A stretch of 64,000 nt of DNA from Pseudomonadota bacterium. Lineage in GTDB: Bacteria; Pseudomonadota; Alphaproteobacteria; Acetobacterales; Acetobacteraceae. The notes under the pieces are model-generated. The model made no database searches and was not told the DNA's origin. It worked only from the letters and a program-made list of their open reading frames with translations. How positions within the stretch are numbered: the stretch's first letter is position 1; each line of letters begins with the position of its first letter. The stretch is taken from contig JAKBAV010000001.1 in assembly GCA_021826225.1 (NCBI GenBank), positions 40,064 to 104,063 on the forward strand, written 5' to 3'. The position numbers and the translations under genes were made by a program. Of the stretch, positions 2 through 15,419 are shown piece by piece.

Positions 2-181
2 CTGGCCGGGGCTATCGGCGGCAAGATATTGGGGGCGGGCGGTGGCGGTTTCATGCTGTTCTTCGCCCGGCCGGAGGAGCACGGCCGGATCCGCGAGCGT
101 TTGAACGGGCTCGTTCATGTGCCATTTCAATTCGATGATACGGGCAGCCGCGTGGTCCTGTATCAGCCTAACGGATTATAG
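2..181 (+). CDS. GHMP kinase C-terminus (D-glycero-D-manno-heptose 7-phosphate kinase-like), truncated at window start
   Basis: Open frame from nt 2 to TAG at 179-181: LAGAIGGKILGAGGGGFMLFFARPEEHGRIRERL..., the glycine-rich GHMP C-terminal motif; next to gmhA/gmhB/hddC-like genes. Confidence 0.75.
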   Translation: MAGAIGGKILGAGGGGFMLFFARPEEHGRIRERLNGLVHVPFQFDDTGSRVVLYQPNGL

Positions 182-184
182 CCC

Positions 185-1153
185 GTGGATAACAACGCAC
201 GTATCTATGTCGCGGGTCATACCGGGCTCATCGGCTCGGCCCTCATCCGCGGGCTGCAAAAGCGCGGCATAACGCTGCTGGTACGCCGCCGGGCCGAGCT
301 GGATTTGCTGGATGGCGCGATGGTCGAACGGTTTTTTAGCGCTGAGCGGCCGGATTATGTGGTTCTGGCTGCCGGCAAGGTCGGCGGCATTGTCGAGAAC
401 CGCGATTATCCGGCAGATTTCCTGCGAGAAAACCTCGCCATTCAGCTGAATGTGTTGCAGGCCGCGCACCGGGCGGGCGTTCGGAAGCTCATATTTTTCG
501 GTTCGTCCTGCATGTATCCAAGCGAATGTCCGCAGCCCATGGCGGAAACCGCGCTGCTCACAGGCCTGCCGGAGCCCACCAGCCTGGCCTATGCCGTCTC
601 CAAGCTGGCCGGATTGCAGATGTGCCTGGCCTATAATCAGCAATTTGGGGAACAGCGTTTCATTCCCGTTATTCCTAACAGCGTCTTCGGGCCAAACGAT
701 AATTTTGACCCTGCGCGCGGCCATGTGCTGTCCTCGCTGATCCGGCGCCTCCACGAAGCAAAAATGACAGCGGCTAGGAGGATAACATTATGGGGATCGG
801 GCGAGCCACGGCGTGAATTCGTCTATGCTGATGACGTGGCCGACGCCTGTATCGCGCTGCTGGAACAGGACACGGCTGCGCTACATCTGCCGCTCAATAT
901 CGGTACGGGCGTGGATGTTTCTATTCGCGAACTGGCAGCAAGCATTGCCGGGATTATAGGCTATGACGGGCTGATCGAATGGGATACGAGCATGCCAGAC
1001 GGCGCGCCACGCAAGTTACTGGATAGCAGCCGCATACGCAGTTCTGGCTGGGAACCGAAAACAAGTCTGCAGGCCGGACTGCACGAGACATATCAATGGT
1101 ATCTGCGGAGTGCATATGTAAACGGCGCGGCGCGGCAGGAGTGCCCGGTATGA
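185..1153 (+). CDS. NAD-dependent epimerase/reductase, GDP-L-fucose synthase-like
   Basis: IYVAGHTGLIGSALIRGL Rossmann motif; SSCMYP and YAVSKLAG (Tyr-x3-Lys); FVYADDVADAC. Confidence 0.85.
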   Translation: MDNNARIYVAGHTGLIGSALIRGLQKRGITLLVRRRAELDLLDGAMVERFFSAERPDYVVLAAGKVGGIVENRDYPADFLRENLAIQLNVLQAAHRAGVRKLIFFGSSCMYPSECPQPMAETALLTGLPEPTSLAYAVSKLAGLQMCLAYNQQFGEQRFIPVIPNSVFGPNDNFDPARGHVLSSLIRRLHEAKMTAARRITLWGSGEPRREFVYADDVADACIALLEQDTAALHLPLNIGTGVDVSIRELAASIAGIIGYDGLIEWDTSMPDGAPRKLLDSSRIRSSGWEPKTSLQAGLHETYQWYLRSAYVNGAARQECPV

Positions 1154-1968
1154 ACCCCAGTGCCGAAATATTGCGGGCGAAGGCCGACTGGGTATGGCGC
1201 GAGACCCTGGCCATCCACCGGCGCGCACCGGAAACCAGGATTGCCTCATCGCTCTCGCCGATCGAGATTTTCGTGGCACTTTACTACGGCGGCGTGCTGC
1301 GCTTCGATCCCAGGGAGCCCCTGGCCGCGATGCGTGACCGGTGCATCATCAGCAAGGGGCACGGCTCCATCTGCATGTATCCCATCCTTGCCGATCTTGG
1401 GTTTTTTCCGAAGGAAGAATTGCTCCGTGTGTGCGAGAAGGGTAGCTTCCTGGGCGGCATACCGGACCCTGTCATCCCTGGCTATGAAACGCTGAACGGC
1501 TCGCTCGGACACGGTCTGGGGGTAGCGACCGGCATCGCGCTCGGTCTGAAGCGTCGTGGCAGCGCCCGCAGCGTATTCGTTATCACCGGCGATGGTGAGT
1601 TGCATGAGGGAGCGAATTGGGAAGCGATTATGTTCGCGGCGCATCATGGCCTGGATAACCTGCATGTGGTCGTCGATAACAACGAGATCAGCATGCTGGG
1701 GCATACTGCGGATATCGTTGCGCATGGCTCTTTGGTCCTGAAATTCGCCGCCTTCGGCTGGGACACAGAGGAGGTGGACGGGCACGATGTGGCGCTGGTG
1801 CAAAGCGCGCTGCTGGCGCAGAAGGAAGTGGCTGATGGGCGGCCGAAGCTGCTGGTGGCGCGTACCCTGAAAGGGCGCGGCGTGCCAGGCCTTGAGAACG
1901 CGCCGCTGGCGCATATCATGAACCCGAAACCCGCCTTGCTCGACATCCTGCTGGAGGCCCACACGTGA
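1150..1968 (+). CDS. Transketolase, N-terminal (TPP-binding) subunit
   Basis: ATG at 1150 overlaps the previous stop; SKGHGSICMYPILADLGF, GSLGHGLGVATGIALG, ITGDGELHEGANWEA..VVDNN. Confidence 0.9.
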   Translation: MNPSAEILRAKADWVWRETLAIHRRAPETRIASSLSPIEIFVALYYGGVLRFDPREPLAAMRDRCIISKGHGSICMYPILADLGFFPKEELLRVCEKGSFLGGIPDPVIPGYETLNGSLGHGLGVATGIALGLKRRGSARSVFVITGDGELHEGANWEAIMFAAHHGLDNLHVVVDNNEISMLGHTADIVAHGSLVLKFAAFGWDTEEVDGHDVALVQSALLAQKEVADGRPKLLVARTLKGRGVPGLENAPLAHIMNPKPALLDILLEAHT

Positions 1969-2963
1969 GCATGAAGCCCTTGGCCATGCGCGATGCGCTG
2001 CTTGAGCGCATCTGGCACGAAATGGCGACGAACCCGGACATTTTTTTCGCCAGCGCGGATTTCGGCTCTCCGGTATTGGATAAAATCCGGGCCGATTATC
2101 CCGCTCGTTTCGTGAATGTCGGTATTGCCGAACAAAATCTCATTAATATTTCAGCGGGTTTGTCGCTCGAAGGCTATACCGTATTCGCCTATGCCATCGC
2201 GCCATTCATCACTATGCGCTGCTATGAGCAGATCCGCGTCAATCTCGCTTTGCTGGCCGAGGCGCGGCAGCTCAATGTCAACCTTATTGGCGTGGGGGCG
2301 GGCTATAGCTATGTCGTCTCGGGGCCGACGCATCAATGCTATGAGGACATAACATTGATGCGCGTGCTGCCGAACATGCAGATTTTCTCGCCGGCCGACC
2401 ATGTCTGCGCGGCGGCGTTACTGGAGCGTTGTGTGGTTGAAACGGGGCCAAAATATATTCGGCTTGATGCCCAGCCTCTACCGGTGATCTATACTGGCGG
2501 CGCGCCGGACATGGAGCGCGGCTTTCATGTGCATCGCCACGGCGCCAGGGTGGTTTTCGTCGCTACAGGCTACATGCTGCATACGGGGATCGCAGTGGCC
2601 GAACAGCTGCGAGAGGCTGGCGAGGTTGTGGGTATTATAGACATGTTCGATCTCGCGCGCTTCAATGCGGATGCCTTGGCAGTCGCGCTATCCGGCTATG
2701 ACATAATTGTAACGATAGAAGAAGGTTTTTCTGGCCGGGGCGGGCTGGATGCGCTGCTCCGCACCTTCACGGTGCGGCACTGCCTCAAGGCCCGTATGCT
2801 GTGCATAGGCGTGGAGCCGGCCTACCGCTTCGACCTTGGCACAAGGCTTGACTTGCATGAGCTGGTCGGTATCGGGCCCGCTGCCGTGCTGCGGGCCGTA
2901 GTTGAGATGCTGGCGACGCTAGAGGCTTCGGCGGGGACCAAACGTGAAGTGGAGAGCCTATGA
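1965..2963 (+). CDS. Transketolase, C-terminal (Pyr/C) subunit
   Basis: ADFGSPVLDKIRADYPARFVNVGIAEQNLINISAGL; overlaps preceding gene by 4 nt. Confidence 0.9.
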   Translation: MSMKPLAMRDALLERIWHEMATNPDIFFASADFGSPVLDKIRADYPARFVNVGIAEQNLINISAGLSLEGYTVFAYAIAPFITMRCYEQIRVNLALLAEARQLNVNLIGVGAGYSYVVSGPTHQCYEDITLMRVLPNMQIFSPADHVCAAALLERCVVETGPKYIRLDAQPLPVIYTGGAPDMERGFHVHRHGARVVFVATGYMLHTGIAVAEQLREAGEVVGIIDMFDLARFNADALAVALSGYDIIVTIEEGFSGRGGLDALLRTFTVRHCLKARMLCIGVEPAYRFDLGTRLDLHELVGIGPAAVLRAVVEMLATLEASAGTKREVESL

Positions 2964-4132
2964 AATTCCCTCTCATGCGCAACAACATCCTACGTCAGGA
3001 TCTTGACGCGGTGATCATGCATCTGCGGCAGGATGACCCAATTCTAACCAATGGCCCGGAAATCCGTGCCTTCGAGGCCGAATGGTCGGCCTGGCTCGGC
3101 GTCAAATACAGCGTGTTCGTGAATTCCGGTGCTTCGGCCAATCTTCTGAGCATGGCGGCGCTGAAGCTGTGCCACCCGGAAGGTGGCGAGGTGATCGTAC
3201 CAGCATTGACCTGGATTTCCGACATCGCCTCGGTGCTGCAACACGGCTTCACGCCGGTTTTCGTCGATATTGACCCGCGCACGCTATCGATGGATACGAC
3301 GCAGATTCTCGCAAAAATCACGACCCGCACGAGGTCGGTATTCCTTACTCATGTGCAAGGTTTTGATGGGCTGACCGATGAGCTACTCGCCGAACTGGAA
3401 CGGCGTGGTGTGAAGTTGATCGAGGATGTGTGCGAATCTCACGGCGCGACGCATGCCGGGCGCCGGCTCGGCAGTTTCAGCTGGATTTCAAATTTCTCTT
3501 TCTATTACGCGCATCATATGAGCACGATCGAGGGCGGCATGATCTGCACGGATGATCCCGCATTGTATCAGCAATTGCGGATGCTGCGCTCACACGGCAT
3601 GGTACGCGAGGCCAGCGATCATACGATACGCGAATCCTATGCCGCGCAATACCCCGACCTCAATTCTGATTTCATCTTCGCCTACGCAGCCTATAATGTC
3701 CGCAATACCGAGATTGGAGGCATTCTCGGCCGGAACCAGCTTAAGCGGCTGGACGAGAATGTGCTGCGCCGGACGGCGAACCTCGAACGCTTTCTCGGCC
3801 AGCTCGACTCGGCGAAGTACCGCACGGATTTCAAACTTGAGGGATCGAGCAATTATGCCTTCAACCTAATCCTGCGCGAACCGGATGAGAAACTCTTTGC
3901 GCGGCTTACGGCGGCGATGCGCGCATCCGGCATCGAGTTCCGGCGTGGCAGTGCCGGCGGCGGTAACCAGTTGCGCCAGCCCTATCTGCGCGGACTGGTG
4001 CCCGATGGCCATTATCGGGAATTTCCCCAAACCGAGCATATCCATTTCTACGGTTGCTATATCGGTAATTTCCCGGACCTGCGGGATGAGGAGATTGATG
4101 AGATATGCGCGATCCTGAATGCAGTCTCCTAG
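2960..4132 (+). CDS. DegT/DnrJ/EryC1 family PLP-dependent aminotransferase
   Basis: FVNSGASANLLSMAAL, EVIVPALTWISDIASVLQHGFTPVFVDIDP, LIEDVCESHGA, SFYYAHHMSTIEGGMICTDD. Confidence 0.9.
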   Translation: MKFPLMRNNILRQDLDAVIMHLRQDDPILTNGPEIRAFEAEWSAWLGVKYSVFVNSGASANLLSMAALKLCHPEGGEVIVPALTWISDIASVLQHGFTPVFVDIDPRTLSMDTTQILAKITTRTRSVFLTHVQGFDGLTDELLAELERRGVKLIEDVCESHGATHAGRRLGSFSWISNFSFYYAHHMSTIEGGMICTDDPALYQQLRMLRSHGMVREASDHTIRESYAAQYPDLNSDFIFAYAAYNVRNTEIGGILGRNQLKRLDENVLRRTANLERFLGQLDSAKYRTDFKLEGSSNYAFNLILREPDEKLFARLTAAMRASGIEFRRGSAGGGNQLRQPYLRGLVPDGHYREFPQTEHIHFYGCYIGNFPDLRDEEIDEICAILNAVS

Positions 4133-4135
4133 GCC

Positions 4136-4834
4136 ATGACCTGCGCCATTATCCTCGCTGGCGGGCTTGGCACGCGTTTGCGCGCGGTTGTGCCCGACCG
4201 GCCAAAGCCCATGGCGCTGGTCAATGGGCGGCCATTTCTGGTGCATCTCATGGATTATTGGCTGGCGCAGGGGGTAAAGCGCTTCGTGCTCTCGGTCGGG
4301 TACCAGCATGACATGATCCAGCAATTTTTTGGCGCGCATTATCAGGGTGTGAAGCTCGATTACGCGATTGAGGAGACCCCGCTCGGCACGGGCGGCGGGT
4401 TGTTGCATGCGATGCATGGCGCGGGAGATGCGGCCTGCCTGGTACTCAATGGCGATAGTTTTTTTGCCGTGGAAGCGCGAAGCCTGCTCGATGCCCATGC
4501 CGGACGGCACGCAGCGTGGACCATGTCACTATTCCGCGCCGGGGAGGCCAGCCGCTATATGGGCGTGAAGCTTGGCACGGATGGGCGGATTGACAATCTA
4601 GCGACTGGGCGCGGTGAAATCGGCGATCATGCTAATGGTGGTGTCTATGTGGTCGATCCCGCGGCAATACGTGGCTGCGGCTTCCCCGCGGGCGAAAAAT
4701 TATCCCTGGAAGATGAGATGCTGCCTTTGATGCACAAGCAAGGCCAGCCGCTTTACGGGCGTGAATGCGCCGGCATTTTCATCGATATCGGCGTTCCAGC
4801 CGATTACCGGCGCGCGCAGGAGATCTTGCCATGA
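4136..4834 (+). CDS. hddC: Sugar-phosphate nucleotidyltransferase (D-glycero-D-manno-heptose 1-phosphate guanylyltransferase-like)
   Basis: MTCAIILAGGLGTRLRAVVPDRPKPMALVNGRPFL; next to gmhA/gmhB-like genes. Confidence 0.8.
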   Translation: MTCAIILAGGLGTRLRAVVPDRPKPMALVNGRPFLVHLMDYWLAQGVKRFVLSVGYQHDMIQQFFGAHYQGVKLDYAIEETPLGTGGGLLHAMHGAGDAACLVLNGDSFFAVEARSLLDAHAGRHAAWTMSLFRAGEASRYMGVKLGTDGRIDNLATGRGEIGDHANGGVYVVDPAAIRGCGFPAGEKLSLEDEMLPLMHKQGQPLYGRECAGIFIDIGVPADYRRAQEILP

Positions 4835-5478
4835 CGGCGCGTGCCTCTTCCCCCGCGGCTTCGGTGCTGCACGCGAATTTTGTACGGTCGGCCCAGGCGA
4901 TGCGGGCATTGAGCGTGGATCACGTTCAGCTTGCCAATTTCGAGGCAATGGCGGCTATGTTGATCGACTGCTTCCGCCGTGGCGGACGGGTTTATATTGC
5001 TGGTAATGGCGGGTCTGCCGCTGATGCGCAGCACATGGCGGGCGAGTTCGTTAGCCGCCTCGCCCGTGACCGGGCGCCGCTACCAGCCGAGGCGCTCAAT
5101 GTCGATGGCGCACTGCTGACAGCGATCGGAAATGATTATGGATTCGATCAGATTTTCGCGCGCCAGCTGCGTGGCAAGCTGACTGACCGGGACATGTTTC
5201 TCGGCTTCACCAGCTCGGGAAATTCGCCTAATATTCTCGAGGCGCTGCATGTCTGCCGCCAGCTCGGTGTACCGGGCCTGATGTTGGCCGGCCGCGGCGG
5301 TGGTGCGGCGGCCGGCCTGGCGAGCGTTTGCCTCACAGTCCCTGGCGAGACCACAAGTACGGTCCAGGAGTTGCATATGATCCTCGCGCATTCATTATGC
5401 GAGGTTGTGGAGCAAGCGCTCTTTCCGCGCCAGACGAGGCTGCTACCGCAGCAAGCAGTACCGGAATACGTGCGGTGA
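4831..5478 (+). CDS. gmhA: Phosphoheptose isomerase-like SIS-domain protein
   Basis: ATG at 4831; GNGGSAADAQHMAGEFVSRLARDRAPLPAEALNVDGALLTAIGNDYGFDQIFARQL; GETTSTVQELHMILAHSLCE. Confidence 0.88.
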   Translation: MTARASSPAASVLHANFVRSAQAMRALSVDHVQLANFEAMAAMLIDCFRRGGRVYIAGNGGSAADAQHMAGEFVSRLARDRAPLPAEALNVDGALLTAIGNDYGFDQIFARQLRGKLTDRDMFLGFTSSGNSPNILEALHVCRQLGVPGLMLAGRGGGAAAGLASVCLTVPGETTSTVQELHMILAHSLCEVVEQALFPRQTRLLPQQAVPEYVR

Positions 5479-5529
5479 TGCGCGCCGGAATGACGGGTTA
5501 TGAGATTTGGCTAGAGGAATGATAGGTTG

Positions 5530-6468
5530 ATGTCGTATAATATACTCGTGACCGGCGGTGCCGGATATCTCGGCTCCATCATGGTTCCCGATCTTCTCGC
5601 GGCGGGACACAAGGTAACCGTGCTCGATAATTTTCTATTCAAACAGACAAGCCTCAATCATGTCTGCTACCACCCTAAATTCTCGGTCGTTAAAGGCGAT
5701 ATCCGCTCCGCCGAGACGATGGCGCCGCTGCTCAAGGCGAATGATGTCATCATTCCTCTGGCCGCGCTGGTCGGCGCACCAATGTGCAATATAGACCCAA
5801 TCGGGGCCGCAACAATCAATCACGACGCGATAACCATGATGCTGAAAATGCTGTCGCCGGCGCAGCGTGTGCTTATGCCGACGACGAACAGCGCCTATGG
5901 CTCGGGTGCTGAAGGAAACTTATGTTCAGAAACATCCCCACTCAACCCAATTTCAAAATATGCGATCGACAAGGTCGCGGTCGAAAAGGAGCTGATGGAA
6001 CATCCTAATGCAATCAGCTTCCGTCTAGCGACCGTCTTTGGCATGTCGCCACGTATGCGCATCGACCTTCTAGTCAATGATTTCACCTATCGCGCCGTGT
6101 ACGACCGCGCGGTCGTACTGTTTGAGAGCCATTTCAAGCGCAATTATATTCATGTTCGCGACGTCTCGCGCGTGTTTCAGCACGGGCTGAATAATTTCGA
6201 TACTTTGAAAAGCCAAATCTATAATGTTGGATTGTCAGACGCAAATGTTTCTAAATGGGAGCTTTGCGATCGGATCAGAATACAGGTCAGGGATTTCACC
6301 TTTATCGAGGCGCAGACTGGCCGCGACCCTGACCAGCGTAACTATATCGTGTCCAACAAAAAAATCGAGGAGACCGGCTACAAACCGCAATTTTCACTGG
6401 ATGCCGGGATTGCTGAATTGATCAAGGGCTTCACGATGATACGAAATTCCGTCCACGGCAATGTCTAA
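5530..6468 (+). CDS. NAD-dependent sugar epimerase/dehydratase (SDR)
   Basis: ILVTGGAGYLGSIMVPDLLAAGHKVTVLDN; ISKYAIDKVAVEKELME; RNYIHVRDVSRVF. Confidence 0.85.
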   Translation: MSYNILVTGGAGYLGSIMVPDLLAAGHKVTVLDNFLFKQTSLNHVCYHPKFSVVKGDIRSAETMAPLLKANDVIIPLAALVGAPMCNIDPIGAATINHDAITMMLKMLSPAQRVLMPTTNSAYGSGAEGNLCSETSPLNPISKYAIDKVAVEKELMEHPNAISFRLATVFGMSPRMRIDLLVNDFTYRAVYDRAVVLFESHFKRNYIHVRDVSRVFQHGLNNFDTLKSQIYNVGLSDANVSKWELCDRIRIQVRDFTFIEAQTGRDPDQRNYIVSNKKIEETGYKPQFSLDAGIAELIKGFTMIRNSVHGNV

Positions 6469-7042
6469 CACAGCAGATCAGGAAGTGAACAATAAGAGAC
6501 CGGCATTATTTCTGGACCGCGATGGAACCTTGAATGTCGAAAAGAATCACCTGTATCGAAGCGCCGACTGGGAGTGGATCCCCGGCGCACCGGAGGCAAT
6601 CCGCCAGATCAACGCCATGGGTTGGCTGGCGATTGTCGTGACCAATCAGTCCGGCGTGGCGCGCGGCTATTACCGGGAGGCGGATGTCAACGCGCTGCAC
6701 CGCCATGTCGATGGTCTGCTGGCTGCGGCTAGCGCGAAAATTGACGCCTATTATATATGCCCGCATCATCCGGATGCTGGCGCCATGGGCGACTGCGATT
6801 GCCGCAAGCCGCAGCCGGGCATGCTGCTCCGCGCCGCGCGCGAGCACCAGATCGATCTCGCCAGTTCCTTCATGATCGGTGACAAGATGACCGACGTTGA
6901 AGCAGCAAGGCGTGCCGGTGTCAGGCCGGTTCTTGTGGCGACAGGATACGGCGCAGCTGAAGCTGAGGCTCTTTCACTCGGCATCGCGCGGGCTGAGAAT
7001 GTACTGGCGGCGGTTGATATGATCAGGAGGCAGTGGCATTGA
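6461..7042 (+). CDS. gmhB: HAD-IIIA phosphatase, D-glycero-D-manno-heptose bisphosphatase-like
   Basis: PALFLDRDGTLNVEKNHLYR; VVTNQSGVARGYY; CPHHPDAGAMGDCDCRKPQPGMLL; MIGDKMTDVEAARRAG. Confidence 0.88.
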   Translation: MSNTADQEVNNKRPALFLDRDGTLNVEKNHLYRSADWEWIPGAPEAIRQINAMGWLAIVVTNQSGVARGYYREADVNALHRHVDGLLAAASAKIDAYYICPHHPDAGAMGDCDCRKPQPGMLLRAAREHQIDLASSFMIGDKMTDVEAARRAGVRPVLVATGYGAAEAEALSLGIARAENVLAAVDMIRRQWH

Positions 7043-7965
7043 GTGGCCGGCGCCTGATCTCGCTACTGCTGCCGACGCGTAAACGTCCGGAATTGGCGCG
7101 CCGGTTTCTGCGCAGTGTTTTGACGACGGCGCAATATCCTGAATCCGTCGAGATCATACTCTATGCTGATGAGGACGATGCAGAAAGTCATGATCTAGAC
7201 TGCACCGGCCTCACTATCCTGCGGATCATCGGACCACGGCAGTCTATGGGTGGCTATAATACCGCCTGCCTGGCACAGGCCAGCGGAGATATCATAGCGC
7301 TGATGAATGACGACGTCGTGATTCGCACCACCGGTTGGGATGAAGCACTGCGGCAACTCGATGCCTTGGTTCCGGACAAAGTATATCTCATTTATGGCAA
7401 TGATATGTTCAAGGGGAAGACGCTTTGCACGTTTCCTATCCTATCTCGTCGGACATGCGAAATATTGCGTGAGCCTTATCATCACGCCTATCGTGGCGCG
7501 TTCATCGACTATCACCTTATGGATATTTTTAAGCGCCTCGAACATAGCGGTTATCGGCGCCTGTTCTATCTGCCGGACATCGCGTTTGAGCATCTGCATT
7601 ATCGCGCAGGCAAAGCGGATTTCGACGAGACATATGGGCAGCGTGGCCGGTTCGATGACGATATGATATTTGTCAGCCTGGCCCAGCTCCGCACCGCCTC
7701 TATGGCACTGCTTTCCAGCGCAATCGAGGGCACATATGACGAGAAAAATTCTGACGCATTGTCTGCATTGCCAGTCTTCACCCCCGTGCCACGGCCAACT
7801 TCACCCATCTACGCCCTATCGCTGTTCACGCGTGAATTTCTTCTCGACTGTGCACTGCCGGGGCGTTGGCGTTTTTTTTTATGGTGGTGGTTCAACGCAC
7901 GTTATCTGACAAATGGTTTGCAAAATGGCATACGTCTCAACTCAAAAACCATGGCGGGGGATTGA
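7033..7965 (+). CDS. Glycosyltransferase (GT2-like)
   Basis: GTG start at 7033; RLISLLLPTRKRPELARRFLRSVL; IIALMNDDVVIRTTGWDEAL. Confidence 0.7.
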   Translation: MALSGRRLISLLLPTRKRPELARRFLRSVLTTAQYPESVEIILYADEDDAESHDLDCTGLTILRIIGPRQSMGGYNTACLAQASGDIIALMNDDVVIRTTGWDEALRQLDALVPDKVYLIYGNDMFKGKTLCTFPILSRRTCEILREPYHHAYRGAFIDYHLMDIFKRLEHSGYRRLFYLPDIAFEHLHYRAGKADFDETYGQRGRFDDDMIFVSLAQLRTASMALLSSAIEGTYDEKNSDALSALPVFTPVPRPTSPIYALSLFTREFLLDCALPGRWRFFLWWWFNARYLTNGLQNGIRLNSKTMAGD

Positions 7966-7972
7966 AAAGCAT

Positions 7973-8779
7973 ATGGAAAAGCCCAGTATTCTCCGCTTTG
8001 TATCTGATGTTATGAAGCACCGCGAAATGATAATTGCGCTTTCCACGCGCGATCTGCAGAGCCGCTATGCCGGCACGCTCGGCGGTATGGTCTGGGCATT
8101 CGTCCACCCTATCGCAGCAGTTTGTATTTTCTATTTCGTTTTCGCGGTGGGCTTCCGTGCGCATGGCCCGAATAATATTCCATTTATTCTGTGGTTCGTA
8201 TGCGGTCTCGCGCCGTGGTATTTCTTCAACGATACGCTGCAGATCATCACCAACGCGATAACGGCGAATGCCTATCTCGTAACAAAAACAGTATTTCCCA
8301 CAGAAATACTGCCACTTGTCTACATCATATCAGGTCTTTTTCCGCATTTCGTATTTCTTGTTCTTCTGGGCATAATGATGAGTGTGTTCCATGTGCCGTT
8401 CTCCGCGGATCGCGTAATGGTGCTGTATTATCTGGGCTGTATGATCACGCTCCTGCTCGGCCTCGGGTGGCTGCTTTCGGCATTACAGGTATTCTACCGC
8501 GACATCGGCCAGGCACTAACCATCTTCCTCAACATGTGGTTCTGGATGACGCCGATCGTATGGGTACAGAATATCGTGCCGCCCGCCTATCAGGGCATTC
8601 TAGCTTCTAATCCCATCTACTACATCGTGCAGGGTTATCGCGGCATGATGATCTATAAATCACCCATATGGCCGACGCTCCACGAGACTGTGATGTTCTG
8701 GAGCCTGACCATCGGCATATTGCTCATGGGCGCTTTCGTATTCCAGCGGCTTCGGCCGGAGTTTGCCGATGTCATTTAA
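7973..8779 (+). CDS. wzm: Polysaccharide ABC exporter permease (Wzm/KpsM type)
   Basis: TRDLQSRYAGTLGGMVWAFVHPIAAVCIFYFVF; hydrophobic; followed by the Wzt-like ATPase. Confidence 0.85.
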   Translation: MEKPSILRFVSDVMKHREMIIALSTRDLQSRYAGTLGGMVWAFVHPIAAVCIFYFVFAVGFRAHGPNNIPFILWFVCGLAPWYFFNDTLQIITNAITANAYLVTKTVFPTEILPLVYIISGLFPHFVFLVLLGIMMSVFHVPFSADRVMVLYYLGCMITLLLGLGWLLSALQVFYRDIGQALTIFLNMWFWMTPIVWVQNIVPPAYQGILASNPIYYIVQGYRGMMIYKSPIWPTLHETVMFWSLTIGILLMGAFVFQRLRPEFADVI

Positions 8780-10169
8780 TCAGAACACAGATGCCGGTAT
8801 TGCCATTTCGGTTTCTGGCGTGTCTAAAAAGTTCAAACTATTTTCGTCAAACCAGGAGCGCGTCATTGAGGCGCTCCACCCGCTGCGCCGGCGTCTTCAT
8901 CGCGAATTCTGGGCGGTTAAAAACGTCTCAATCGACATTCATCGCGGCGAGATCGTAGGCATTCTGGGGAAAAACGGCTCCGGCAAATCCACGCTATTGC
9001 AGATGATCTGCGAGGTTATGAAGCCAACAGCTGGTACGATAAAATCTGCCGGCCGCATCTCCGCGCTGCTCGAACTCGGCGCAGGCTTCAACCCGGAATT
9101 TACCGGGCGAGAAAACGTCCTGCTCAATGGCGCCATAATGGGATTTTCCCGCCAGGAGATGGTACGCCGGCTACCGGCTATCGAGACCTTTGCCGATATT
9201 GGTGATTTTTTTTACCAGCCGGTCAAGACCTATTCATCAGGCATGTTCGTGCGTGTGGCTTTCGCCGCCGCCATCCATATAGACCCAGAGATATTGGTTG
9301 TCGACGAAGCACTGAGCGTCGGCGATACAAAGTTTCAGCACCGCTGCTTTCAGCGCATCCGGGAGTTTATGGAACAGGGAAAGACCATCCTCGTCGTCTC
9401 TCATAGTACCGATACGCTATTGCGTATCTGCAGCCGCGGTATCGTTATGAATAGCGGCGCGGTTGAATTTGCGGGCCCGATTGCAGAGGCCGTGAACTAC
9501 TACCAAAATCTTCTTTTCGGCGCGGTTGTTGAAAAAATCGACCAGTATGGGCCGCCTGCGGATAAGCCCGGCATAACCGATGCAGCGATTTCCGTAGAGA
9601 GTGGGGTATTGACGGGGGCATGGGATGGCCGAGATCATGTCCCGGATAAGCCGAATTATAACCCCCATGAGGTTCGTCTGGGCAACCGGGCCGCCTCTAT
9701 TGTGGGCTTCGATATAATTGCGAATGGGCAGGTCAATCCGGCAGAAATACCAATGCGCGCAGAGACTGATCTGGTCATCAACATCCGCTTTGATGTAGAT
9801 ATTCCCTGCGCGTCGATCGGCTTCGCGATCGTCACCGTCGATGGAACTTATATTTTCGGCACTAATCTGTTCATGCTACAGTTGCCACTGATAAACGCAA
9901 AGGCCGGGGAGTATTATGCCGTGCGCTTTCGCTTTGTCTCGACGGTCGCGGGTGGAGATTATTTTCTCAACATCGGATCGAATCAGATAATAAATGGAAC
10001 CGATCAATATCTGGATATCCGCCGGTCAGTAGCCCATATAAAATTTGCCTACACACCCGGAGTCACGGGATTCATCAACCTTGCACCTGAAACGCTTGTT
10101 ACCTGCATGTCGAGTGCGTCTGATGAGGCAGATCCGCTCATCTTTTCCGCTGAAATCCCGGTATACTGA
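8769..10169 (+). CDS. wzt: Polysaccharide ABC exporter ATP-binding protein with extended C-terminal Wzt-type domain
   Basis: GILGKNGSGKSTLLQMICEVMKPTAGTI, YSSGMFVRVAFAAAIHIDPEILVVDEALSVGD, about 200-aa C-terminal extension. Confidence 0.88.
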   Translation: MSFNQNTDAGIAISVSGVSKKFKLFSSNQERVIEALHPLRRRLHREFWAVKNVSIDIHRGEIVGILGKNGSGKSTLLQMICEVMKPTAGTIKSAGRISALLELGAGFNPEFTGRENVLLNGAIMGFSRQEMVRRLPAIETFADIGDFFYQPVKTYSSGMFVRVAFAAAIHIDPEILVVDEALSVGDTKFQHRCFQRIREFMEQGKTILVVSHSTDTLLRICSRGIVMNSGAVEFAGPIAEAVNYYQNLLFGAVVEKIDQYGPPADKPGITDAAISVESGVLTGAWDGRDHVPDKPNYNPHEVRLGNRAASIVGFDIIANGQVNPAEIPMRAETDLVINIRFDVDIPCASIGFAIVTVDGTYIFGTNLFMLQLPLINAKAGEYYAVRFRFVSTVAGGDYFLNIGSNQIINGTDQYLDIRRSVAHIKFAYTPGVTGFINLAPETLVTCMSSASDEADPLIFSAEIPVY

Positions 10170-12310
10170 TGCGCGAAATATTCTTTGAACTCGCCTCGTT
10201 GGAGGATTTTCTGAGGAGACTTAACCCATTATGGATAAATAATGAGTTTTCCCCGCAAATTTTAGGAGACAACGAACTGGCTCGGGAAATTTCCAGGGTG
10301 GCAACACAAAACAACATCGCACTGCACAGTGATGATCTCTTGGTTGCAAGTGGTAAAACGCCTCTTATAATTCTGACCGAGGAAAACGGTGCGGCACTAC
10401 ACCTTGAGCTGATGTCCTATCTGTCGATTTCTGACGTGGTCATAGTTGCCCCCGTTACCGATTGGCATTTCAGCAAGCGGCCACTTTTTCTTCTTTCAAT
10501 CCCAAAATCCGGGACGCATCTTCTCTACGAGCTGGCCGGTGCTTTAGGCTTTAATCCCGGAGTCGATCTGCCGGAATTTCCGCAGGGGAAAACCTGGTAC
10601 TGCGTGGAATATGAAAATTCTCACACTGAAGCATCTGATTTCTTTATTGATACGGTACGTCGTTCACCATTCGGAAATCGGCATCACAGCTTCATGCGGT
10701 CACCGGCGATCTTCATATACCGTCATCCGCTCGACATACTTGTGTCCGAGGCACATTATTATCACCTTGACGGGAAGACGGCATTCGCAGGATGGTTTGA
10801 TGGGCTTGATTTTTCGTCCCGGGTTGATCGGTTATTGAATGATGGCAGAATTTTGCTTCCATTCCGAGATCGTATAAGAAAATTTCTGCCATGGCTTGAG
10901 TTTCCGAATGTCATAAATTTGTCTTTTGAAGAACTGGTCGGTGCAGCGGGAGGAGGAAGCGACACAGAGCAGCGGGATCTTATATGGTCTCTTCTGTTAA
11001 AACTACAGGTGCCGGGAAATCCGGATGATGTTTGTGCGAAACTGTTCAATTGTAATGCTGCGACCTTTCGCGCAGGGCAGATTGGGAGCTATCGAAAAGA
11101 ACTTTCTTCGGAAAACATTGAAAGCTTCGCCCGGCAGAACCATGATATCCTTGTTGAGCTTGGTTTCAATGTAAATGGAGAGGCAATGTTGCCTTCGCAT
11201 AGGCAGCGGCATAGAGCACAGCGGCTCTCCTATTCAAATCACGACTATCACGATAATCCGATTAAGCTAGAATCTGGATTTCTTGGATGCAACTTGGTCC
11301 GATATGCTGGAAGAATTTATGCTTTGCCAATCAATGCCGGCGCATTGCATATGGCGCAACTTTCACCAGAGTTTTTGGCGGCATTGCCCTCCGCGGCTAC
11401 CCTTTGCGAATTGAAGACGCTTCTTTTAATAGGTCTTGAAGGTCTCGACCAGCGGCTGAATGCCCTGCATAAATTGGGCGATGCCCTGTCTGGCAGGGAA
11501 GCGCTGGAGGGTTTCATTCCCTTCTGGAATCATGCAAATGCTCCTTGCCTTGTAGAAGAATATAAAGGTAACAATATAGTATTCTTCAACAATAGATTTT
11601 ACGGAATACGCCAGTCTTTGGGGGAGGTCGATCTCACAAAGAATCTCGATACTACATTGTCGTCCTATTCTATGGACGATGTCATGGTTGGCTATCATAT
11701 CTTGGAGATAAGAGATCAGATTGACCGGATTTCTTCGCACTCCAGGCTAAAGCAGTGGATTCTACGGACGAACGGCCAAAAAGATGTCAAATATTGTCAG
11801 GACAAAGATAGCTCAGCCCAGGCGCTACAATGGCTTAGTTTCCAAAATTCCAGGGCGGTTGAGCAACTCGGAGCGCTGGAGAGCGAATTGCGCGAAGCAA
11901 GAACCGCATTTGAGAATCGGTCCGTTGCCGTAGACATTAAAGTAGTGGACATTGATCGACAGCTTTTAGAAAAAATCAGTCTGACTGATGATACGCTAAT
12001 ACAGCTAAGAGTGGAGTCTGAACGGAATTTTTTGAGGTTAAGTCATATTGTGGATGATTCTGTCGTTTCAAACTCAGCAAGGTTAGAGGAGGTTCTGGCC
12101 GATCAGGCGAATCGGCAGGAATGCTTTATGGTGGAGCTGAGAAAATCTATCGATTCGGCACATGAGGAAATGCAGATCACCCTCCTGTCGGTTCTAGCAC
12201 AACAACAATCGGAGTTGGATCGTCAGGCTAAACTGATTGCAGCCATGAAAAATACCTGGCTGCTTCGTCTGGTGCATCATGTGCGGCACTTTATGGAACG
12301 AAAGAGATGA
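10169..12310 (+). CDS. Multidomain sulfotransferase-domain protein with two 'GxNiVRy..fYaiPq' modules and C-terminal coiled-coil-like segment
   Basis: LLSIPKSGTHLLYELAGALGF (PAPS 5'-loop-like), FIYRHPLDILVSEAHYY (3'-phosphate-loop-like); module copies at about 11261 and 11540; charged C-terminal region. Confidence 0.7.
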   Translation: MREIFFELASLEDFLRRLNPLWINNEFSPQILGDNELAREISRVATQNNIALHSDDLLVASGKTPLIILTEENGAALHLELMSYLSISDVVIVAPVTDWHFSKRPLFLLSIPKSGTHLLYELAGALGFNPGVDLPEFPQGKTWYCVEYENSHTEASDFFIDTVRRSPFGNRHHSFMRSPAIFIYRHPLDILVSEAHYYHLDGKTAFAGWFDGLDFSSRVDRLLNDGRILLPFRDRIRKFLPWLEFPNVINLSFEELVGAAGGGSDTEQRDLIWSLLLKLQVPGNPDDVCAKLFNCNAATFRAGQIGSYRKELSSENIESFARQNHDILVELGFNVNGEAMLPSHRQRHRAQRLSYSNHDYHDNPIKLESGFLGCNLVRYAGRIYALPINAGALHMAQLSPEFLAALPSAATLCELKTLLLIGLEGLDQRLNALHKLGDALSGREALEGFIPFWNHANAPCLVEEYKGNNIVFFNNRFYGIRQSLGEVDLTKNLDTTLSSYSMDDVMVGYHILEIRDQIDRISSHSRLKQWILRTNGQKDVKYCQDKDSSAQALQWLSFQNSRAVEQLGALESELREARTAFENRSVAVDIKVVDIDRQLLEKISLTDDTLIQLRVESERNFLRLSHIVDDSVVSNSARLEEVLADQANRQECFMVELRKSIDSAHEEMQITLLSVLAQQQSELDRQAKLIAAMKNTWLLRLVHHVRHFMERKR

Positions 12311-14463
12311 CACAGAGACCCTTATCTGTTGCGGTTCCTTGGAGCTTAAGTCATTATATTCCCTTGAATGGTTTTCACCCACTCTATCAGTCATTATTCG
12401 ACCATCGGCCCGATAATATTACGATGAGCGCTTGGGATAACACCGAGTTGTCCAATGCATTGCGTGGTGATGGTCGTTTTCGTAAAGAATTGTTGGCACA
12501 TGTGATGCAGGAGCAAAATAGGTATAAATCTGAATTCGAGTCACTCCTGGCGCTAAAATATACGGATGCTTTTTTTGTACCAAACATCGCTCTGACATCT
12601 CTATTGCCTGGCGATATCGAATTTCATCATACCGCTCCGTTCCCGAGCATGATTCGTCCTTTTATATTTCATTGCGAATCATTTGCACCCATTTTTTTCC
12701 CCTTCATGCAGCAAGGTAGTGGAAATATCGATAATGTTGAGGCTTTGCGAGAACATTACGGAAAAATATTTTCAAATCCATTATGCCTGGGCATATTTTC
12801 ACACATACCACATACACTTGAGGAAATAAAAAAATTCTTCGGATCCCCCGACATCAATGCGAAGCTATATCCATCCCGCATCGGCCTCACCCCACGCGCA
12901 TCAAAACTGTCGGATGACGTAAAAGTAAGGCAGCTTCGAGCGCCGAGATTCTTGTTTATAAACTCGGCCAATCAAAACCCAGAAAATTTCATTCATCGCG
13001 GCGGTCATATAATTTTGCGGTTCTGGTTCAAATTCAATGCTCGATTTCCAGGTGCGAAGCTTTACCTGCGGTGTAGGCGTCCTACGGATGAAATTCTTTC
13101 CGAACTCGGCGTCGATCTCACTCATCTGCGCCGAGAAGAATCGCAGAGTATCATATGGATTCAGGATTTTATCGGAAGCAATGAGTTAGATCGCCTCATG
13201 TTCCATGTTCATTTCTTTCTCCTTCCCAGCGCGTCTCTGCATTCCGTATCAATAATGCAGGCGATGGCCAACGGCGCCGTACCAGTCGTTTCTGATACAG
13301 TCGGAACAAATCAGTATGTTACGCATGGGCACGATGGTATCGTATTGAATGGCGTTCACGCGAATAATTGGAAAGCTGATGCTGATACGAATATATTGAT
13401 AGATCGCTTTCACCGAAATCTGGATCTAGAAGATAGTCTAGTACAGCAAATTGAAGAAAATATAATTCGGCTGATTGATGTGCCGCAAGAATTCAACGCA
13501 ATCCGTTTGCGCGCAATGGTATCAGCCGGGACGAAATTTTCAGGTGAAGAATTCAGCCAAGACTTCTGGAACCAGGTGCGGTCTCTTTGGGATCGCTATG
13601 GATGTCAAAAATATCAATACGATAATGCCTATAAGTTGATCCCCCCTCTGGAGCATTGCCTGGTGGATACGGCGGACTGGCCGCGGATATTTGAGAGCGT
13701 ACCACAGCCAATGACCAGAATTTACACTGGGCGAGGGCGTGTCACGGAATTGGCCGGCGCCTTCGTGTACTCTGCGGGAAATGCAAAAGTCGGGCTGCAT
13801 GACTGGTGCGTTGCGGCTGAATACTATAAATCTGGTGCGCCCGCCCTCCGCTATGTCAATGACATAAGCGAACTGGGCGGAAAATACCTCACGGAGAGTC
13901 GGGTGCTGGCCTCCCACTCATTTGCCACGTATCTGTCTGTATTGCTGTTTCCGTACCCCCGCCTCCACCGTTTTGTAGCGCGGCTGCACAAGAAATTCCG
14001 AAAGTTTATGAACTCATATGGTATTCGGAATGAAGAAGGACATATAGACATTCAGCTTGTCGCGCAGAATATATCTGGAATGAATGTGGTCCGCGCTCAA
14101 GATCACTATTATGCGATCCCACAGGATGGCGGTGCATTTTCTGAGGAAAAAGCGAATAGCGGAGGATATCGCCTGTGTTTTAAAGCCAGTACGCTACGGC
14201 GTGTTCTAGGAAAAATCATGGAATACGAGGCGGCCCAGGGTCCTATCTCGCCACAATCCATTGTCGGAGAGGACGCGCCAATTCTGGTTGAGGAGGGGTT
14301 TTCAGGATTTAATATCATCAGATATGCGGATAAATTTTTTGCTGTTCCTCAAGGTGAAGGTACTTTCGAACATCAGCGGGCTCTTGCAGGTGGGTATAGC
14401 CATGTTCATGTCGGCATAACACTGGATGATACGAAACATGCAATTTCATCCTACGCAAGATGA
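12307..14463 (+). CDS. Glycosyltransferase (GT4/GT-B-like) with two C-terminal 'GxNiVRy..fYaiPq' modules
   Basis: LPSASLHSVSIMQAMANGAVPVVSDTVGTNQYVTHGHDGIVLN typical of GT-B donor site; modules at 14050 and 14275; overlaps upstream gene by 4 nt. Confidence 0.65.
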   Translation: MTQRPLSVAVPWSLSHYIPLNGFHPLYQSLFDHRPDNITMSAWDNTELSNALRGDGRFRKELLAHVMQEQNRYKSEFESLLALKYTDAFFVPNIALTSLLPGDIEFHHTAPFPSMIRPFIFHCESFAPIFFPFMQQGSGNIDNVEALREHYGKIFSNPLCLGIFSHIPHTLEEIKKFFGSPDINAKLYPSRIGLTPRASKLSDDVKVRQLRAPRFLFINSANQNPENFIHRGGHIILRFWFKFNARFPGAKLYLRCRRPTDEILSELGVDLTHLRREESQSIIWIQDFIGSNELDRLMFHVHFFLLPSASLHSVSIMQAMANGAVPVVSDTVGTNQYVTHGHDGIVLNGVHANNWKADADTNILIDRFHRNLDLEDSLVQQIEENIIRLIDVPQEFNAIRLRAMVSAGTKFSGEEFSQDFWNQVRSLWDRYGCQKYQYDNAYKLIPPLEHCLVDTADWPRIFESVPQPMTRIYTGRGRVTELAGAFVYSAGNAKVGLHDWCVAAEYYKSGAPALRYVNDISELGGKYLTESRVLASHSFATYLSVLLFPYPRLHRFVARLHKKFRKFMNSYGIRNEEGHIDIQLVAQNISGMNVVRAQDHYYAIPQDGGAFSEEKANSGGYRLCFKASTLRRVLGKIMEYEAAQGPISPQSIVGEDAPILVEEGFSGFNIIRYADKFFAVPQGEGTFEHQRALAGGYSHVHVGITLDDTKHAISSYAR

Positions 14464-15419
14464 CCGCTTACTTTCCCGCACGCCCGTCGGTTCATCTGTG
14501 GATTTACAATCATCCTCTGAGTGGAATCAGTGATCAGATCGATTTCTTTTGCGCCATCATGCAGCAATATGGTTACAAACCGTCAGTAGGGCGCAATCCG
14601 CGGCATGACGCTCTTAATGTTGTGATAGAGAATTTTTCAGATGCCACATCGGATATTTTGAGACAATATTGCCGCGAGAGTGGTAAGCGCGTATGTGTCA
14701 TAATGACCGAGCATATCGATTTTATTGACAATGAAATCTACATTCATGGTGACATGATGTGGAATCAGAATGACTATATGCATCCGGCAACACAGGTTTC
14801 CCGTATCCGGAGCCTGATGGATTGTGCACCCTATATCAGAGGTTTTTTTGTTCTGGGGGATCTTCCAGAACTTCTGAATATGGGTATGATGTTGCCCGGA
14901 ATTACTGTGAGAACGCTGCCATTCCCACAGCTACCCCCCCCGTCGGATCATGCGGAATGGGCGGAGCTACCAGCGGATCTTGTTTTTACCGGCGCTGTAA
15001 CACGCTTCCGCGTGGAAATTCTCGAAATCACGAGGACAAAGCTGACTGTACATAATCCGGACGGTTTTCTTTCGCGAAAGGCGCGAGATCGCTTCAGCCG
15101 CAGCGGCCGTCTGGTGTTAAATATTCCGCAGCGGACTGACTGGAAATGGCTCTCTTTGATGCGGGTGATGGCGGCGCTGCGATGTGGCCGGGCTACAGTC
15201 TCCCTGGGAACGAGGGACCGTTCCGAGATTGCGAAATGTTGCATACAGATAGATATAAAAAACCGTGATTTTCTGGCGGAATTGCAGGATATGGTGTCCC
15301 GGAGCGGGGAGTTGTTCAAAAAATCATTCGATAATTATCATGCCATGGCAGCTGATTTTCAGCTAACGCACATATTCCCTGATGATTTACTGGACTATTG
15401 GGCGATTACCGAATTGTGA
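14460..15419 (+). CDS. Hypothetical protein, possibly glycosyltransferase-like
   Basis: 319-aa ORF coupled (ATGA) to upstream gene; DLVFTGAVTRFRVEILE..WLSLMRVMAALRCGRATVSLGT; no confident family. Confidence 0.65.
   Translation: MTAYFPARPSVHLWIYNHPLSGISDQIDFFCAIMQQYGYKPSVGRNPRHDALNVVIENFSDATSDILRQYCRESGKRVCVIMTEHIDFIDNEIYIHGDMMWNQNDYMHPATQVSRIRSLMDCAPYIRGFFVLGDLPELLNMGMMLPGITVRTLPFPQLPPPSDHAEWAELPADLVFTGAVTRFRVEILEITRTKLTVHNPDGFLSRKARDRFSRSGRLVLNIPQRTDWKWLSLMRVMAALRCGRATVSLGTRDRSEIAKCCIQIDIKNRDFLAELQDMVSRSGELFKKSFDNYHAMAADFQLTHIFPDDLLDYWAITEL

Follow-up and report, generated by a model that had tools for sequence, protein, structure and literature searches.

A candidate route to a C4-branched 3-deoxy-heptose in a surface polysaccharide locus that combines a split transketolase with a B12-binding radical SAM enzyme

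A 64,000-nucleotide stretch from an Acetobacteraceae draft genome that is about 87% complete (assembly GCA_021826225.1, contig JAKBAV010000001.1, positions 40,064 to 104,063; hereafter the window) opens with a compact run of sugar-nucleotide genes, and it is this run, together with its counterparts in other bacteria, that is considered here. All nine genes at 2-7042 were confirmed, each on the + strand. They begin with the last 180 nt of an HddA-like GHMP kinase (2-181); the whole kinase has 331 aa and starts upstream of the window at G000:C16:39249 (L005:1250-2245). Next come SDR1, a short-chain dehydrogenase/reductase (SDR) resembling GDP-L-fucose synthase that may be a C5 epimerase and/or a reductase (185-1153), and two split transketolase-like subunits, one with the thiamine diphosphate (ThDP) PP domain (1150-1968; PF00456, 1e-30; reading frame open from 1096) and one with the Pyr and C-terminal domains (1965-2963). 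These are followed by a ColD-type sugar 3-dehydratase dependent on pyridoxal or pyridoxamine phosphate (PLP/PMP; 2960-4132), an HddC-like sugar-1-phosphate nucleotidyltransferase (4136-4834), a GmhA-like phosphoheptose isomerase (4831-5478), SDR2, which resembles the GDP-heptose 4-dehydrogenase Cj1427 (5527-6468), and a GmhB-like heptose 1,7-bisphosphate 7-phosphatase (6461-7042). The likely starts of the first transketolase subunit (ATG at 1150) and of GmhA (ATG at 4831) each overlap the preceding stop codon as ATGA. Directly upstream of the HddA gene, outside the window, lies the least usual component of the unit, a gene for a B12-binding radical S-adenosylmethionine (SAM) enzyme of 510 aa (G000:C16:37700-39232; L004:17636-19168). 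The unit thus runs from the radical SAM gene to GmhB, plus the genes downstream to 15419, and reaches beyond the window upstream. An earlier, sequence-only reading of the window had named the nine genes; they and their families were borne out, except for the label of DegT aminotransferase, which did not hold.

The four core enzymes belong to a GDP-heptose route. For each of HddA, HddC, GmhA and GmhB the best curated family is the correct one: the kinase matches NCBIfam HddA at 4e-39 (135 bits, cut-off 600), the nucleotidyltransferase has HddC as its best NCBIfam match at 1.7e-43 (149 bits, cut-off 300), and the phosphatase is the only one to clear its NCBIfam cut-off (PRK08942, 181 bits against 178). 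The isomerase matches the solved structure 2xbl (E 5.5e-45) and conserves the catalytic Glu65 and His180 as well as the phosphate-binding residues. The view that relatives of these enzymes form a GDP-heptose that is then modified is therefore supported, as is the proposal that the split transketolase is a real part of the route.

The first modifications can be predicted by close homology. SDR2 aligns with Cj1427 (6vo6, E 6e-101) with 51% identity across about 306 residues, and its catalytic Tyr145 and Lys149 are present in all 70 aligned sequences. Cj1427 forms a 4-keto sugar while reducing alpha-ketoglutarate to L-2-hydroxyglutarate (PMC10680097). Scanning named genomes with a radical SAM profile gave 80 loci related to this one, and with others 93 were tabulated; a gene for L-2-hydroxyglutarate oxidase occurs in 15 of these 93 loci, frequently beside SDR2 (for example at L054:18824, L059:9750, L108:3348 and L149:1310, with 11 more loci), and a representative scores 359 bits against an NCBIfam cut-off of 299. 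None was seen in the window's own cluster. Such an oxidase probably recycles the product expected from a Cj1427-like dehydrogenase, and its presence in related loci therefore gives independent, indirect support for the use of alpha-ketoglutarate by SDR2.

The DegT-fold protein finds its closest solved structure in ColD (2gms, E 9e-49). At the site of the PLP-binding lysine it has His185, aligned with His188 of ColD, where 3b8x and 2r0t have Asn and Lys, and this His is found in 81/81 aligned ColD-like sequences, that of the window included. A ColD-type His in place of the lysine means that no amination is expected; a sugar aminotransferase making an amino-heptose was therefore ruled out, and with it the amination on the GDP-sugar that had been suggested earlier. 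A C3-dehydratase of the same kind from Campylobacter HS:5 works on a GDP-keto-heptose (PMC10440746), and Cj1427 mixed in vitro with a C3-dehydratase yields GDP-D-glycero-3-deoxy-4-keto-heptose (PMC10680097). In the window, a Cj1427-like SDR2 and a C3-dehydratase are encoded together in one operon-like run, and the pair is predicted to make GDP-3-deoxy-4-keto-heptose, for which reports to date describe in vitro mixing of the Campylobacter enzymes. In SDR1, Ser107, Cys109, Tyr136, Lys140 and His180 are invariant in 48/48 aligned sequences, the Cys and His of an epimerase among them.

The module recurs in the 93 loci, which span at least eight phyla. As the loci were picked by the radical SAM gene, counts of that gene are biased; for the others, the 63 full-length loci contain a ThDP enzyme in 62, HddA in 60, the ColD-like gene in 56 and SDR2 in 54. 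A small reverse test by the ColD-like gene (E <= 1e-100) found it in 9 of 399 genomes, with radical SAM and ThDP genes adjoining in 8 of the 9; the ninth match lies on a 2.2-kb contig that also carries a gene resembling L-2-hydroxyglutarate oxidase. Chance falls far short of explaining the linkage. The order radical SAM, HddA, SDR1, ThDP enzyme, ColD-like, HddC, GmhA, SDR2 returns whole, partial or rearranged in Methylobacter, Methylomonas, Chlorobiaceae, Nitrospira, Gallionellaceae, Bradyrhizobium, Rhizobium, Pseudomonas, Vibrio, Verrucomicrobia and Planctomycetes, and the module is also present on plasmid pDMC1 of Solidesulfovibrio magneticus. Though widely spread among bacteria, it is apparently undescribed: literature searches returned no paper in which transketolase, radical SAM, GDP-fucose synthase and polysaccharide appear together, and none linking carbocyclic sugars with radical SAM.

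The most telling variation is found in the ThDP slot. It is held by a split transketolase in 41 loci, by a small E1-like pair in 40 and by a full E1 alpha/beta in 5, and never by two types together. The small pair consists of an E1alpha-like PP protein of about 200 aa and a Pyr protein of about 180 aa, without a C-terminal domain; it is met mainly in Nitrospira, relatives of Piscinibacter and Verrucomicrobia (for example L090:3831-4998, L123:7590-8750 and L108:7543-8806). In a phylogeny of 80 ColD-like proteins, built by a quick method and with many weak branches, the ThDP type switches at least nine times. Since enzymes of differing donor chemistry interchange in this way, their shared job is most simply carboligation onto a common GDP-sugar, and E1-like enzymes are not expected to provide a ketose phosphate for GmhA. 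As a separate observation, the Bradyrhizobium-like genome G363 has three split-transketolase N halves (C1:6023681-6024400, 6301216-6302004 and 6690175-6690900), two of them outside the module, and other split-transketolase pathways probably exist there.

The split transketolases of the module have an unusual active site. Residues are given in E. coli TktA numbering, with the roles commonly assigned to them in the family, and 35 close module enzymes were compared with 28 generic split transketolases. The PP subunit has the split transketolase 6yak as its closest solved structure. His66, Asp155, Asn185, His261, Glu411 and His473 are retained in 35/35 module enzymes, and the same 35 all carry the replacements His26 to Arg, His100 to Ile, Ser385 to Pro, His461 to Gly, Asp469 to Ser and Arg520 to Ala; Arg358 is conserved. 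Generic split transketolases keep His26 (28/28), His100 (27/28) and Lys or Arg520 (28/28), and many of them also lack His461 and Asp469. Four diverged module enzymes (about 44-53% identity) likewise have Arg26, Ile100, Pro385 and Ser469, and in two others position 100 is a Tyr, as it is in E. coli pyruvate dehydrogenase E1 (PMC7696235); in this smaller set the alignment near 461 and 358 is uncertain. Changes at H102 (G, L or T), which is equivalent to H100, and at H474 gave a transketolase the use of aliphatic keto acids (PMC7696235). From these residues, the module proteins are transketolase-like enzymes that would keep ThDP catalysis and have lost the residues that bind phosphate and donor, and they are not filed here as functional transketolases. 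The acceptor would then be unphosphorylated and the donor is probably pyruvate-like. Given both the lost residues and the switching of the slot, the likeliest role of the enzyme is to attach two carbons at C4 of the GDP-sugar.

Taken together, these observations are best explained by a GDP-activated, 3-deoxy, C4-branched heptose destined for an ABC-exported surface polysaccharide. We put the probability of this reading at roughly 0.68, a figure that covers C4 branching of a 3-deoxy-heptose and leaves the donor and any ring closure open. In the proposed pathway, SDR2 would oxidise C4, passing the electrons to alpha-ketoglutarate, and the ColD-like enzyme would take off the C3 hydroxyl to give GDP-3-deoxy-4-keto-heptose, in which SDR1 may invert C5. 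The transketolase pair would then act as a ThDP carboligase, placing a two-carbon unit on the C4 ketone and creating a tertiary alcohol; it is comparison that suggests branching at C4, and the altered donor site suggests pyruvate, hence an acetyl branch, over a ketose phosphate. The radical SAM enzyme would come last and act on the branched sugar. Its most economical task would be closure between C7 and C8 to a cyclopentane, giving GDP-caryose or an isomer, and attack of a C7 radical on the ketone at C8 would involve no net redox change.

Caryose, the sugar of the caryan of Pseudomonas (now Trinickia) caryophylli, is a 4,8-cyclo-3,9-dideoxy-nonose and can be read as a heptose with a 3-deoxy position, a 4-C-acetyl branch and a C7-C8 bond. 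The carbon count, the 3-deoxy position, the C9 methyl and the quaternary C4 all match the proposed route; the configuration at C2 and C6 is that of D-glycero-D-manno-heptose, and the inversion at C5 could be the work of SDR1. We know of no genes for caryose biosynthesis. It is tentatively possible, at somewhat less than even odds, that the module is a caryose-type pathway in which the split-transketolase or E1-type ThDP enzyme acetylates C4 and the radical SAM enzyme, as an isomerase, closes C7 to C8 to form a cyclopentane and so a carbocyclic nonose; closure by this enzyme, a step read from the match of structures only, is given about the same odds. The enzyme itself has both PF04055 and the B12-binding PF02310 above the Pfam cut-offs, and the three Cys of the CxxxCxxC cluster motif are present in 94/94 aligned sequences. 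Its best NCBIfam match is HpnJ (TIGR03471, 4e-30), with BchE second, and at 105 bits against a cut-off of 577.6 it is a distant relative of HpnJ and not an HpnJ. Bacteriohopanetetrol cyclitol ether owes its cyclitol to HpnJ, which makes it from a glucosamine (PMC12583986). Bradyrhizose, the ten-carbon carbocyclic sugar of Bradyrhizobium, was also considered and no link was found, the radical SAM gene being present in only 3/149 genomes of that genus.

The same branched heptose may meet a different last step, in which the radical SAM enzyme adds a C-methyl group or removes a hydroxyl by AprD4-like diol dehydration. Methyltransferases make up the majority of the B12-binding radical SAM enzymes described so far. 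By sequence, and by the fold of a predicted model made from a Methylobacter relative (mean predicted local distance difference test score 78), the solved structures that come nearest are AprD4, TsrM (a methyltransferase), MgmA and OxsB, so the fold leaves the reaction undecided. Against this stand the curated match to cyclitol-forming HpnJ and the structure of caryose, which requires exactly one further step, a C-C closure, and no additional methyl; methylation or dehydration nonetheless keeps a substantial chance, a little short of one half. A less probable variant of C4 branching, which we consider rather unlikely, differs in the donor: a hydroxyacetyl unit would come from a ketose phosphate or hydroxypyruvate, as proposed for miharamycin (PMC12247030), and SDR1, which retains the catalytic Ser, Tyr and Lys, would reduce the branch ketone, the product being a 4-C-(hydroxyacetyl or dihydroxyethyl)-3-deoxy-heptose. 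The split transketolase fold, with a true split transketolase as closest solved relative, and the retained His261 and His473 fit such a donor; the replacement of His26 and His100 throughout the module enzymes, with Arg and Ile recurring even in the four much diverged ones, and the E1-type enzymes that hold the slot elsewhere do not.

Two readings dispense with branching at C4 altogether. An ordinary cluster of the Campylobacter kind would need SDR2, the ColD-like enzyme and an Fcl-like reductase, which suffice for GDP-3-deoxy-heptoses (PMC10680097), with SDR1 reducing C4 and the transketolase serving merely as a local source of sedoheptulose 7-phosphate. This is improbable: the near-constant ThDP enzyme includes E1 types from which sedoheptulose 7-phosphate is not expected, SDR1 is found in only 53/93 loci, and the radical SAM gene is left without a role. 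Still more improbable, and rejected as the leading reading, is the lincosamide-like octose route put forward by the sequence-only reading, in which the transketolase makes a C7 or C8 ketose phosphate that GmhA isomerises, with amination to follow. The co-occurrence of the GmhA, HddA, GmhB and HddC set with a transketolase speaks for it. Amination, however, is precluded by the ColD-type His; Ser385 and Arg520 of the transketolase phosphate site are lost and His461 is not kept; roughly half of the related loci have an E1-like enzyme in the slot, and several of these keep GmhA; and GmhA has ordinary catalytic and phosphate-binding residues. The genome, moreover, has a separate full-length transketolase and a transaldolase elsewhere, and no LmbR-type transaldolase is found in the cluster, the single genome match lying on another contig.

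Several points weigh against the preferred reading of a C4-branched 3-deoxy-heptose and its closure to a ring. None of the organisms found has a known product of the pathway, and the sole proposals of a transketolase that moves a two-carbon unit onto a ketone concern miharamycin and amipurimycin, where this has never been demonstrated (PMC12247030). For HddA, HddC and GmhA the best family is the expected one, yet the scores lie below the NCBIfam equivalog cut-offs, and specificity for seven carbons is therefore presumed only. The module transketolases retain His473, whereas an engineered double variant that uses pyruvate had this residue altered too, and the nearest solved structures of the radical SAM enzyme include a diol dehydratase and methyltransferases. 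Finally, SDR1 is missing from 40/93 loci, some of them incomplete, and three loci lack a ColD-like gene and have an RmlC-like epimerase; product variants are therefore expected in the wider family. The RmlC-like gene takes the place of the dehydratase in L049 (7337-7888) and L115 (12981) and adjoins it in L168 (10515), pointing to variants that retain the C3 hydroxyl.

Parts of this route have precedents. The capsular heptose pathways of Campylobacter jejuni share with it the GDP-heptose start, C4 oxidation of the Cj1427 type, a PLP-dependent 3-dehydration and an Fcl-like SDR. There, however, the C3-dehydratase acts on a 6-deoxy-4-keto-heptose supplied by a 4,6-dehydratase, and its combination with Cj1427 was an artificial mix (PMC10680097); the module described here has both activities together with ThDP and radical SAM enzymes, described in none of the C. 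jejuni clusters. In yersiniose A biosynthesis, where an RfbH-type dehydratase acts upstream, the ThDP enzyme YerE puts a two-carbon unit on C4 of a 3-deoxy-4-keto nucleotide sugar, as proposed here. The substrate in that case is a CDP-3,6-dideoxy-hexose and the enzyme is of the decarboxylase type (PMC12247030), whereas here a GDP-heptose would meet a split transketolase, an E1 pair or a minimal PP and Pyr pair. For the Streptomyces antibiotics miharamycin and amipurimycin, a split transketolase is the proposed means of joining two carbons to a keto-sugar, a reaction never demonstrated in vitro (PMC12247030); the loci considered here are Gram-negative surface polysaccharide clusters. HpnJ, in turn, is likewise a B12-binding radical SAM enzyme that acts on a sugar. 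The module unites enzyme types for tailoring a GDP-heptose and for ThDP-dependent branching of a sugar with a B12-binding radical SAM enzyme, a combination that to our knowledge has not been described before, and it recurs in groups that include Nitrospira, methanotrophs, Bradyrhizobium and Verrucomicrobia. The different ThDP classes in one slot amount to a natural experiment, and the module supplies many candidates, from outside Streptomyces, for transketolases that form tertiary alcohols. If the caryose-type reading is true, it would explain how bacteria make this rare ring-sugar and would, as far as is known, give a carbocyclic monosaccharide of surface polysaccharides its first genetic route, one that extends across several phyla and is directly testable.

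Downstream, the window continues with genes of polysaccharide export. A glycosyltransferase-like gene (7033-7965), which adjoins the module also in Bradyrhizobium, Rhizobium and Cohaesibacter, is followed by a Wzm-like ABC transporter permease (7913-8779; PF01061), found beside the module in many relatives, and a Wzt-like ATPase with a Wzt C-terminal domain (8763-10169; PF00005, PF14524), all on the + strand, as are three further genes for proteins of 713, 718 and 319 aa (10169-15419), which probably serve in assembly of the exported polysaccharide. The first two of these proteins (10169-12310 and 12307-14463) are large and almost without Pfam match, and share repeats resembling G-x-N-I-x-x-[YF]-x-x-[RK]-[FI]-[YF]-A-[IV]-P-Q; the first has a sulfotransferase-like stretch, SIPKSGTHLL, and the second a weak GT4-like match. 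The G+C content is 47-60% across the polysaccharide stretch against 58-69% in the remaining window, the lower values being what an exchanged surface-polysaccharide island would show. In the related loci, NUDIX hydrolases of two kinds are repeatedly found next to the module, in 14 and 12 loci (L153:10494-10973 and L059:10924-11556).

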